Source: Elusimicrobia bacterium HGW-Elusimicrobia-1
GTDB lineage: Bacteria; Elusimicrobiota; Endomicrobiia; PHAN01
Direction: 5' to 3'
DNA length: 43,368 bases
Assembly (NCBI GenBank): GCA_002841695.1
Contig: PHAN01000015.1
Location: 1 to 43,368 of the forward strand
The notes under the pieces are model-generated. The model was given only the letters and a program-made list of their open reading frames with translations, was not told the origin of the DNA and searched no databases. Below, piece after piece: positions 4,001 to 31,598 of the stretch; the stretch's first letter is position 1, and each line of letters starts with the position of its first letter. Position numbers and translations under genes: made by a program.

Positions 4001-4103
4001 GAGATTAGGATACTATGAGATTAGGGTACAAACAAAATCCTAAAGAGCTGAAAACACTACAATTTATTGAAAAATGCCCCTAATCTCCTGATATCCTAAT
4101 CTC
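4001..4103. repeat. 103-bp palindromic element with 26-bp arms
   Basis: The left arm 4001-4026 and the right arm 4078-4103 are inverted copies that match at about 23 of 26 positions. Each arm holds two copies of GAGATTAGG spaced 16 bp apart. The 51-bp centre is AT-rich and noncoding. The element fills most of the gap between the SprA-like stop and comF. It looks like a MITE- or REP-type mobile palindrome and could act as an RNA hairpin. Confidence 0.75.
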
Positions 4104-20280: not shown

Positions 20281-22779
20281 ATGTACAACCCCGCGGACAT
20301 CGAGCCCAAACACCAAAAAATCTGGCGCGACAAAAAAGCGTTCGCCTTTAACCCCGCGTCGAAAAAACCCAAATATTACATACTCGTGATGTTTCCCTAT
20401 CCTTCCGGCCGCATCCATATAGGACACGTCAGAAATTATGTCATAGGCGACGTCTTCGCGCGTTATTTCCGTCTCAAAGGTTACGAAGTTTTTCACCCAA
20501 TCGGATGGGACTCGTTCGGACTGCCCGCGGAAAACGCCGCCATAAAAAATAAGATACCTCCCGGCAAATGGACGGAATCCAATATCGGGCATATGAAATC
20601 GCAGCTGTCCCGTCTGGGAATTTCCTACGACTGGAATTCCGAACTGGCCACATCAAGAAGCGAATATTACAGATGGAACCAGTGGTTTTTCCTCAAAATG
20701 CTCGAGCGCGGACTCGCGTACAGAAAAAAATCCGCCGTGAACTGGTGCCCGAAATGCGCCACCGTGCTGGCGAACGAACAGGTCGTGTCCGGCGAATGCT
20801 GGCGATGTTCTTCCGTCGTGGAAACAAAAGAACTCGAACAGTGGTTCATAAGAATAACCGATTACGCCGGGGAATTACTCGAAGGACACCGGCTTCTTGA
20901 AAAGAACTGGCCCGACGAAGTGCTTGCGATGCAAAAGAACTGGCTGGGCCGGTCGGAAGGCGCGGAAGTGGATTTTACCGTGGAGGCAACAGGCGAGGCG
21001 TTAAGGATTTTTACCACGCGCCCCGACACGCTCTTCGGCGCCACATTTATGGTAATAGCGCCCGCGCATCCGCTGTCCGCCAAAATAGCCGGGACGAATA
21101 AAGATATCGCGGAATATATCTCGACCCACACGCGGACAACGACCCGCGAACAGTCGGCGACTACGGGAAAAACGGGCGTTTTTTCCGGCTTGTACGCCGT
21201 AAACCCCGCAAACGGAAAAAAACTGCCCGTGTGGATTTCCGACTACGTCACCATGGACTACGGCACGGGCGCAATAATGTGCGTGCCCGCGCATGACCAG
21301 AGGGATTTTGACTTCGCTAAAAAATTCGCCCTTCAAATCATCCCCGTGATAAAACCCAAAGACAAACCCCTGCCCGAAACTCTCGACGCCGCATACGAAG
21401 CCGAGGGCGCAATGATAAACTCCGGCAAATACGACGGCGCGGATAACGTCGAGTGCGCCCGTCTTATAACCGAGGAACTGGGCAAGAAAAATCTGGCCAA
21501 GGCCGTTGTCCACTGGCGACTCAAGGACTGGCTCATATCCAGACAGCGGTATTGGGGAACGCCCATTCCCGTGGTCTATTGCCCGGAATGCGGCATAAAA
21601 GGCGTAAGAGAAGAGGACTTGCCCGTAAAACTGCCCGACGACGCGGCCATAACGGGATCGGGCGAATCGCCGCTGGCTTCGCACAAGAGTTTTACCGACG
21701 TCAAATGTCCCGGATGCGGCGGACCCGCGAAACGTGAAACGGATACCATGGACACTTTCGTGGATTCTTCGTGGTACTACGCCAGATATTGCGACCCTAA
21801 AAACGCCGCGGAGCCGTTTACAAAATCCGCCGCGGCGCGGCTGCTGCCGGTAGACCAGTACGTGGGCGGCATTGAGCACGCCTGTATGCATCTTATATAT
21901 TCGCGCTTCTGGCATAAATTTATGCGTGATATGGGCTTGGTGTCGTCCGACGAGCCGTTCCTTCGCCTTCTGACGCAGGGGATGGTGACGCTCGCGGGGG
22001 AAACAATGTCGAAATCCAGGGGTAATATCGTCGAGCCGGACGAAATCATCCAAAAATACGGCGCCGACGCGTTGCGTCTTTTTATAATGTTCGCGGCGCC
22101 TCCGGAGCACCGTCTCGACTGGTCGGATTCCGGACTGGAAGGCGTTTGGCGTTTCTTAAACCGTATATACCGCCTCGTCGAAAAATATAAACAGGGGCCG
22201 ATGCAAATAAATACCGCCGCGTCCGCGGCCGTAGGGACAGGTCGCGACCTGTCCCTACATACGGACCCCGCCGACGACCTCGACGAGCAAGCCCTGTGCC
22301 TCAAAAAAATAACCGCCCGCACGATAGCCAAAGTGTCGCGCGACATTGATGTCGAAAAACAGTTCAACACCGCCGTGTCGTCGATGATGGAACTTCTAAA
22401 CGCTATGACCGCCTATCCGGCCGCCGGCGACAAGGCATGGCGAGGCGCGCTTGAATCCCTGCTTATTATTCTGTCTCCGTTCGCACCGCACTTCTGCCGC
22501 GAAGCCCTTGACGATATACTTGCGAAAAACGATGACGGCGCGATCTGGCCGACGGTCGATGAAAAACTGCTTTCCGACGACGAAGTCGACATACCGGTGC
22601 AGATTAACGGACGCCTCAGAGGCCGTGTGCGTTTGGCGTCGACGGAAGATTCCCCGGACAAAACGCTTCAAAAGATAAAAGCCGACGAGGCCTGCGCCAG
22701 GCATCTGTCCGGCGTCAATATAAAAAAATTCATTTACGTCCCCGGAAAGATAGTCAACATTGTCACAGACGGTAAATAG
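20281..22779 (+). CDS. leuS: Leucyl-tRNA synthetase
   Basis: 832 residues. It charges tRNA-Leu. The HIGH motif appears as YPSGRIHIGHVRNY (near residue 40). The KMSKS loop is ETMSKSRGNIVEPDE. The CP1 editing domain has TRPDTLFGATF. Two zinc-type cysteine sets (CPKCATV...CWRC and CPECG...CPGCGG) and GGIEHACMHLIYSRFWHKF fit bacterial LeuRS. It starts 3 nt after glgM. Around residues 651-660, at the entry to the anticodon-binding domain, a perfect 28-bp palindrome is inserted in frame and adds the residues VGTGRDLSLH in a linker. The insert should be tolerated because it lies between domains. Confidence 0.97.
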   Translation: MYNPADIEPKHQKIWRDKKAFAFNPASKKPKYYILVMFPYPSGRIHIGHVRNYVIGDVFARYFRLKGYEVFHPIGWDSFGLPAENAAIKNKIPPGKWTESNIGHMKSQLSRLGISYDWNSELATSRSEYYRWNQWFFLKMLERGLAYRKKSAVNWCPKCATVLANEQVVSGECWRCSSVVETKELEQWFIRITDYAGELLEGHRLLEKNWPDEVLAMQKNWLGRSEGAEVDFTVEATGEALRIFTTRPDTLFGATFMVIAPAHPLSAKIAGTNKDIAEYISTHTRTTTREQSATTGKTGVFSGLYAVNPANGKKLPVWISDYVTMDYGTGAIMCVPAHDQRDFDFAKKFALQIIPVIKPKDKPLPETLDAAYEAEGAMINSGKYDGADNVECARLITEELGKKNLAKAVVHWRLKDWLISRQRYWGTPIPVVYCPECGIKGVREEDLPVKLPDDAAITGSGESPLASHKSFTDVKCPGCGGPAKRETDTMDTFVDSSWYYARYCDPKNAAEPFTKSAAARLLPVDQYVGGIEHACMHLIYSRFWHKFMRDMGLVSSDEPFLRLLTQGMVTLAGETMSKSRGNIVEPDEIIQKYGADALRLFIMFAAPPEHRLDWSDSGLEGVWRFLNRIYRLVEKYKQGPMQINTAASAAVGTGRDLSLHTDPADDLDEQALCLKKITARTIAKVSRDIDVEKQFNTAVSSMMELLNAMTAYPAAGDKAWRGALESLLIILSPFAPHFCREALDDILAKNDDGAIWPTVDEKLLSDDEVDIPVQINGRLRGRVRLASTEDSPDKTLQKIKADEACARHLSGVNIKKFIYVPGKIVNIVTDGK
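22231..22258. repeat. Perfect 28-bp palindrome inside leuS
   Basis: Two 14-bp arms (GTAGGGACAGGTCG and its reverse complement) meet with no loop. The core GGGACAGGTCGCGACCTGTCCCTACA recurs at 31480, outside any gene. In leuS it is read in frame, so it behaves like a palindromic element that has entered a coding region. Confidence 0.9.
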
Positions 22780-28001: not shown

Positions 28002-28421
28002 TTAAGTTCTTGTAGGCGGCTGAGATTCCAATGCGCTTATGCGCTTTTCGTGGCCATCCACTTTTGATTCCACTTCTTGTATACGGTATGTATTCACCAT
28101 CGCCTTTCGTTCGTGTTCATCGGTTTTAGCTATTAAAACGTCAAGGGTAGTGATAATTCGCTGAATGTCCTCATTTTTGGCCATCGTTCTTTTTATATAT
28201 TCTATATCCTCAGTGTGCCTAATAATTTCTTTTGCAAGCCGCGCTATGTCATCTTTGGTAGCCATATTCTTGATGTCATCTTTGGTAGCCATATTCTTGA
28301 TGTCATCTTTGGTGGCCATATTCTTTTCAATGCTTTCAAATTTCCCAATGAACTCCCTCTTTGTTTCATTGAATTCTTTGTTTGTTACAAATTGATAGTT
28401 TGTTTTAGATTTTTTAGGCAT
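28002..28421 (-). CDS. Small coiled-coil protein with tandem NMATKDDIK repeats
   Basis: 139 residues from the ATG at 28421, behind AAGGGGGGA. It is charged and helical throughout, with no signal peptide. Three near-identical 9-residue units (NMATKDDIK) lie at residues about 35-61, and the rest has coiled-coil character (IEYIKRTMAKNEDIQRIITTLDVLI). Such 'ATKDDI/ATKEDL' proteins are widespread in bacteria and phages and lack a known role. A good promoter stands in front, so it is likely expressed alone. It converges with the MGMT-like gene. Confidence 0.8.
   Translation of the reverse strand: MPKKSKTNYQFVTNKEFNETKREFIGKFESIEKNMATKDDIKNMATKDDIKNMATKDDIARLAKEIIRHTEDIEYIKRTMAKNEDIQRIITTLDVLIAKTDEHERKAMVNTYRIQEVESKVDGHEKRISALESQPPTRT
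28248..28325. repeat. 27-bp tandem repeat, nearly three units
   Basis: Units 28248-28274 and 28275-28301 are identical; a third unit from 28302 has one substitution and diverges near 28325. Each unit codes for nine residues of the coiled-coil protein, so copy-number change keeps the frame. Confidence 0.9.
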
Positions 28422-30819: not shown

Positions 30820-30942
30820 GAACAATGTCGTCATTGCGGTTTAATACACACCCCTACCCCTCTTATTAGAGGGGATTTAAAACTCCCCTCTTGAGAGGGG
30901 GTTGGGGGGTGTGTATTAAACCGCAATGACATACTATTGTTC
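30820..30942. repeat. 123-bp near-perfect palindromic element
   Basis: Outer GAACAAT/ATTGTTC (30820-30826, 30936-30942) encloses long arms (TCATTGCGGTTTAATACACA at 30831 and its inverse ending at 30929), then an inner hairpin AGAGGGGATTT/AACTCCCCTCT (30868-30891). It sits between the transglycosylase and argF. The folded RNA would be very stable and could attenuate read-through. The outer GTCATTGCG word is shared with the element at 10319. Nothing else is seen in 30766-30962. Confidence 0.9.
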
Positions 30943-31466: not shown

Positions 31467-31479
31467 GGTTTCTTTCGCG

Positions 31480-31598
31480 GGGACAGGTCGCGACCTGTCC
31501 CTACAAACGCATTGCGCGTCACGGGCGACCAAGGTCGCCCCTACGCGAGGCAACGAGCCGCTGTTTTTTTCCACTAACCACTCGCCACTAACCACTGC
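31480..31598. repeat. Repeat cluster: two palindromes and a 14-bp tandem repeat
   Basis: A perfect 22-bp palindrome (31480-31501) plus the following TACA matches the leuS insert. A second palindrome, GGGCGACC-AA-GGTCGCCC, lies at 31523-31540. CCACTAACCACT occurs twice in tandem at 31571-31598. The whole gap between the giant gene and the transglycosylase is made of these elements. Confidence 0.85.

Follow-up and report, generated by a model that had tools for sequence, protein, structure and literature searches.

A 28-bp palindrome within leuS of an Elusimicrobia bacterium is a probable double-foot GTAG REP

The insertion sequence IS608 employs Y1 HUH chemistry on its hairpin ends with a tetranucleotide as guide, and an adjacent short target becomes part of the edge of the element. 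For GTAG REPs, several properties that bear on the element described here are already known: sections of Di Nocera et al. (2013, PMC3733652) report intragenic copies, including copies in tRNA synthetase genes, as well as the donation of TAG stop codons, and double-foot REPs and REPs lying in frame inside tnpA_REP (RAYT) genes are described in parts of Quentin et al. (2018, PMC6006769). The TnpA_REP transposase recognises and cleaves at GTAG (PMC8266576). REP transposition has not yet been caught cleanly, either as to its target or as to how large a unit moves.

The window considered here is the whole 43,368-nucleotide stretch of contig PHAN01000015.1 from Elusimicrobia bacterium HGW-Elusimicrobia-1, whose assembly comprises 2.06 Mb and is 96.9% complete. 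An earlier note had described a perfect 28-bp palindrome in frame within leuS and a recurrence of its core at 31480, and both observations hold: the palindrome, GTAGGGACAGGTCGCGACCTGTCCCTAC, begins exactly at codon 651 of an intact frame, where it is read V-G-T-G-R-D-L-S-L plus the first base of H, and the 22-bp core is repeated exactly at 31480-31501 (Table 1). The host gene is identified securely (NCBIfam leuS_bact, 1031.6 bits against a cut-off of 548.4). The palindrome consists of a left GTAG, a 20-bp self-complementary core and a right CTAC, the complement of the left foot, and its single strand, folded on its own, is predicted to form a hairpin with a stem of 12 bp and a 4-nt loop (-12.2 kcal/mol, z -6.8). 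Being palindromic, the element has the same reading phases on either strand; one phase contains TAG, and the two open phases read VGTGRDLSL and RDRSRPVP. A palindrome arising by chance is ruled out by shuffling: the core was absent from 100 of 100 shuffles, and across 20 Markov shuffles of the window perfect palindromes reached at most 14-20 bp, as against the 28 bp seen.

Table 1. Positions of the leuS palindrome, its host gene and related features in the window.
Feature	Position	Strand	Remarks
leuS, bacterial leucyl-tRNA synthetase, 832 aa, intact frame	20281..22779	+	
Length-variable LeuRS linker, recipient of the insert	22183..22308	+	From alignments
28-bp perfect palindrome GTAGGGACAGGTCGCGACCTGTCCCTAC	22231..22258	.	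Probable double-foot GTAG REP; read in the leuS frame as VGTGRDLSL
Second copy in the window: exact 22-bp core, right CTAC foot, degenerate left foot (GCG, not GTA)	31477..31504	.	
REP-like palindrome, GGGCGACCAAGGTCGCCC + CTAC, with a different core and a single CTAC foot	31523..31544	.	

The second copy in the window lies about 14 bp upstream of a minus-strand ATG (31466) and adjoins the other REP-like palindrome of Table 1, whose GGGCGACCAAGGTCGCCC core has two further copies in the same genome (loci L056 and L058). The window also holds two MITE-like structures, one between genes with 25-bp perfect inverted repeats 51 nt apart (30830-30930; GTCATTGCGGTTTAATACACACCCC) and one with 26-bp inverted repeats (88%) and a spacer of the same length (4001-4103; GAGATTAGGATACTATGAGATTAGGG), together with a 27-bp unit present three times in tandem in frame-sized steps (28246-28326; ATGTCATCTTTGGTAGCCATATTCTTG).

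The palindrome is not unique to leuS. Genome-wide there are 18 exact copies of the 22-bp core and 15 of the 28-mer, and about 26 copies when variants are included, one of them in valS. A search for GTAGGG..CCCTAC that allowed any total length from 20 to 50 nt recovered 34 palindromes, all of exactly 28 nt; by their cores they form three groups (ACAGGTCGCGACCTGT, GCGTATAATTATACGC and GCGAAAGATTTTTCGC) plus minor variants. The same search in the same-genus genome (G001, the congener) gave six palindromes, again all of 28 nt, one with the third core (GCGAAAGATTTTTCGC) and five with a fourth, and the leuS-type palindrome itself was found neither in the congener nor in 57 same-class genomes. One of the sister palindromes in the congener (GTAGGGGCGAATGATTATTCGCCCCTAC, L078:2545-2572) is part of a composite repeat that precedes leuS of that genome by about 60 bp. 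As to placement, two of the approximately 26 copies lie inside conserved genes (leuS and valS), five are at stop codons, and most are intergenic. About 11 of the intergenic copies are embedded in larger GTCATTGCGAGG-type repeats, along with which they may have spread. Five copies (L043, L044, L048, L050 and L054) have identical flanks, CCGTTTTG..TTCGTCA, within the larger GTCATTGCGAGG-type repeat, and REPs therefore travel nested in other repeats.

The segment of LeuRS that receives the insert lies in the anticodon-binding region, between the WRFLNR..RLVEK and LKK..TIAKV segments, and alignments that include structural homologues show it to be a linker, variable in both length and composition across all species. 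Far from being common to all relatives, the residues VGTGRDLSLH are missing from the congener's LeuRS, which is 75% identical overall, and from another 28 LeuRS sequences of the same class. Compared with the congener the linker has 19 additional residues, an expansion for which the palindrome accounts only in part. The valS copy (C10:26391) is likewise in frame and in the same phase as in leuS. The identity of this gene is well supported (NCBIfam valine--tRNA ligase, 1054 bits against a cut-off of 704), and alignment shows the inserted residues to be absent from the congener's ValRS (82% identical) and from 17 other relatives. At both empty sites the congener is too diverged for boundaries to be placed at the level of single bases. 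The insert most likely has no function for LeuRS. A relative (G029, locus L099) has, in the same LeuRS linker, a different extra stretch, CHCGEAQSADAAI; the DNA encoding it, TGCCATTGCGGGGAAGCG, is similar to the common GTCATTGCGAGG repeat, suggesting that a different repeat may have entered there.

The copies at gene ends provide a comparison between filled and empty sites. Five long frames have as their stop codon the TAG within the GTAG of a copy; one of them encodes a transporter of the MacB type, with an FtsX domain that is complete seven residues before the stop, and the other four belong to a single paralogous family with members ending ...DDIxxxQ. Five empty members of this family end CAG-TAG and continue into unrelated DNA, and the four filled members read CAG-TAG followed directly by GGACAGGTCGCGACCTGTCCCTAC, one of them differing at two positions in the centre or at the end. 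No palindrome is present at the stop of paralogues that end CAA-TAG, CAG-TAA or CAG-TGA; in one CAA-TAG paralogue the palindrome is found about 20 bp further on, beside a GTAG of its own. Presence of the palindrome is thus 4 of 9 in paralogues with GTAG and 0 of 7 in those lacking it, a difference that is weak alone (Fisher p = 0.09). Two loci, L254 and L256, have GCCGTAACAACTTCGTAACAATTATTTTGTATAA in common downstream, bracketing the insertion, and the spacing to a conserved GCCGTAACAAC is 24+8 nt in filled ends versus 7 nt in empty ones, the 7-8 bases in between being diverged. Two of the filled paralogues look like duplicates of a single event, and some filled copies may share one event. 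Read most simply, these ends would have had a GTAG to begin with and have gained 24 bp on its 3′ side; the net size is probably 24 bp, as judged from paralogues with diverged downstream DNA. Of the larger GTCATTGCGAGG-type repeat two empty versions were found, both too diverged at the site for the junction to be read, and the CCGTTTTG..TTCGTCA context was found in filled copies only, with no empty ones.

We consider it likely that the palindrome is a double-foot GTAG REP that was moved by a RAYT into a GTAG/CTAC tetranucleotide with a net gain of 24 bp and with the frame kept. The palindrome would be one copy of a small, non-autonomous mobile repeat, and a RAYT-type transposase (TnpA_REP, Y1/HUH) would act on the single-stranded hairpin and join it at a pre-existing GTAG, or at CTAC on the opposite strand. 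The target tetranucleotide would become one of the feet, leaving a net gain of 24 bp. Because this corresponds to eight codons the reading frame would always be kept, and the survival of genes that receive the insertion would be explained. Insertion in one phase would supply or keep a TAG stop and in the other two would be read as VGTGRDLSL or RDRSRPVP; in leuS and valS the element would have entered surface linkers in the VGTGRDLSL phase and been tolerated. The contrast between filled and empty CAG-TAG paralogous ends lends support, at the sequence level, to a 24-bp insertion at GTAG.

The palindrome could be a GTAG REP and still owe its copies to something other than a 24-nt insertion at GTAG. 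Parts of Quentin et al. (2018, PMC6006769) indicate that double-foot REPs could derive from an inverted dimer by central deletion, and recombination or gene conversion could also have multiplied them, as might be thought from the five copies that have identical flanks and spread within a larger repeat. We regard these routes as unlikely, since the core is exactly identical at unlinked sites and across phyla, and the paralogous family includes empty CAG-TAG ends, both of which insertion fits better.

The mobiliser postulated for such GTAG REP insertions is indicated by foreign loci. Among the matches listed, a RAYT of one clade is present in 15 foreign loci, with the palindrome in frame inside the gene in seven of the 15 and within 250 bp of it in another seven. 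Six of the seven intragenic copies (L116, L119, L135, L143, L190 and L206) occupy the same loop, from the HUH motif to KSLSELMGAFKTTSSK, and the remaining one (L199) is in another loop. These RAYTs have MPNHxH, WQRSF and YIxxNP-type motifs and score 57.6-68.3 bits with the NCBIfam model REP_Tyr_transpos, below its cut-off of 80. No RAYT of this clade was found in the 96.9% complete genome that carries the leuS palindrome. This genome has two RAYT-like genes of a different sequence type, at C2:99886-100344 (L061; 111.8 bits, above the same cut-off) and C3:25962-26414 (L276; 58.8 bits, below it), neither of which contains or borders a GTAGGGACAGGTCGCGACCTGTCCCTAC-type palindrome. The cognate enzyme may have been lost or may be unassembled, or one of the two RAYT-like genes may act in trans, and this is the weakest link of the explanation.

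Both of these genes, as well as those of some relatives, have repeats of their own. The first (L061:2650-3470) has on its flanks a tandem repeat of approximately GTAGGCAAAAGGGCTTGTCCCC, together with GTAGTGTAGGGG / CTACACTAC ends, and looks like a REPtron of its own. The second (L276:1483-1965) has an in-frame GTAGCGGC...GCGGCCGCTAC (a GTAG..CTAC repeat) in a variable loop; its frame ends early and appears to shift near the 3′ end. RAYT genes of two same-class genomes (L274 in G041 and L275 in G037) contain several in-frame GTAGGGGCGGGTTT..-type REPs, of which L274 has five, on the N-terminal side and in the loop.

A scan of GTDB contigs for the exact 24-mer yielded at least 120 stretches in at least 60 other assemblies. 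The matches listed include at least eight phyla (Bacteroidota, Patescibacteria, Nitrospinota, Pseudomonadota, Omnitrophota, Spirochaetota, Acidobacteriota and Fibrobacterota), and both feet, a left GTAG and a right CTAC, are kept at 98 of the 125 foreign sites among them. Because isolates carry the palindrome too (Segetibacter aerophilus, Xanthomarina, Pontibacter and Raineya), contamination of MAGs is not sufficient to account for all foreign copies. Family models identify as in-frame hosts a dihydroorotase (L176), the shikimate dehydrogenase AroE (L203, which has further decayed copies), YchF (L125), a PolX-like protein with the palindrome in the linker that joins the polymerase thumb to the PHP domain (L204), PPDK (L164), and a DNA methylase with the palindrome beyond the domain (L186). 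All copies seen inside conserved genes use one of the two open phases, and those at gene ends use the TAG phase. Three loci (L122, L195 and L225) were left out of the intragenic count, since the palindrome there precedes the domain-bearing part or stands right at its beginning, and many long palindrome-bearing frames in high-GC Nitrospinota loci, which have no Pfam match, were treated as spurious. Collections of plasmid and phage records gave no palindrome match, and viral contigs gave six stretches among 2.9 million, offering no support for phages as carriers. A broader proposition is that one fixed 28-bp REP, distributed over at least nine phyla, inserts into GTAG/CTAC sites, adding exactly 24 bp net, is intrinsically frame-neutral, enters both its own transposase and essential genes, and has had its length selected for gene-dense genomes; we advance this tentatively, and it may well prove too sweeping.

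The in-frame copies in leuS, in valS and in conserved genes elsewhere are also what would be expected of a selfish element like those of Rickettsia, for which gene entry and the creation of new protein segments would be the purpose. The earlier note had likened the palindrome to these elements and had seen in it a possible general mechanism by which this lineage makes new protein segments. Tolerated entry in frame is upheld, in leuS, valS and several phyla, but the kinship is not: the feet are GTAG/CTAC, whereas the rickettsial REPs among those elements are of the CGTC type (PMC3733652), and the association with RAYT transposases marks the palindrome as a GTAG REP. Nor does the idea of a general route fare well, with most copies in the genome intergenic, two of about 26 in conserved genes, and eight residues added by each, no more, in tolerant linkers; overall we find an element of this sort very improbable. 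Slightly less credible still is a selected binding site, such as an operator or nucleoid-protein site, of which the genic copies would be functional instances and not insertions: a perfect 28-bp palindrome with the same sequence in many phyla does resemble the site of a dimeric protein, but it is patchy (with none in the congener or the 57 same-class genomes), is found not in promoters but inside transposase genes, composite repeats and tRNA synthetases, is tied to RAYT genes, and has sister families in its own genome that differ in the core but have the same feet and length.

Two aspects of the GTAG REP appear to be new, its identity across phyla and the frame-neutral target model. Neither a fixed cross-phylum 28-mer and a uniform 28-nt length within a genus, nor the reading of GTAG as target with a frame-neutral 24-bp gain, was found in the principal sections of PMC3733652, PMC6006769 and PMC8266576, and the leuS and valS insertions are not described in those of PMC6006769. 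The DNA core had no match in the full-text literature searched, and the peptides and an 11-mer had unrelated matches only, among the matches listed. Filled and empty CAG-TAG ends within one genome, together with the fixed 28-nt length, lead to a concrete prediction, namely that 24 nt are gained 3′ of GTAG. If true, this would explain both the frequency with which GTAG REPs supply TAG stops and the tolerance of intragenic REPs in essential genes, and the identical 28-mer in many phyla would be a marker for the horizontal spread of RAYT/REP systems.

Comparison with known systems places the palindrome as follows. Rickettsia palindromic elements are an analogue and not its family: they too are palindromic repeats that enter genes in frame, but they belong to another lineage, RPE-1 is longer, and RPE-4 and RPE-6 are given as CGTC REPs in sections of PMC3733652, so that the feet and the RAYT association set the palindrome apart. 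By analogy with IS200/IS605, its putative mobility would involve Y1 HUH chemistry, hairpin ends, a tetranucleotide guide and a target that becomes the element edge, although the 28-nt unit here is without a transposase gene. The features of the GTAG REP superfamily are present, with GTAG at the foot of a hairpin, many copies that are mostly intergenic or at gene ends, and an association with RAYTs (in foreign loci only). The GTAG-tagged REPs portrayed in parts of PMC3733652 are similarly short repeated hairpins with a GTAG end near RAYTs, but there GTAG is unpaired and at one end, and here GTAG/CTAC bounds both ends of a loopless 28-bp palindrome. A further comparison is with the double-foot REPs of TnpA_REP subclass 2.4, for which no RAYT was found in the genome studied here; as described in sections of PMC6006769, they combine a 5′ GTAG and a 3′ CTAC on one element, their RAYT is scattered over several phyla, and the RAYTs associated with the palindrome agree with theirs in motifs and have the REP in the same place.
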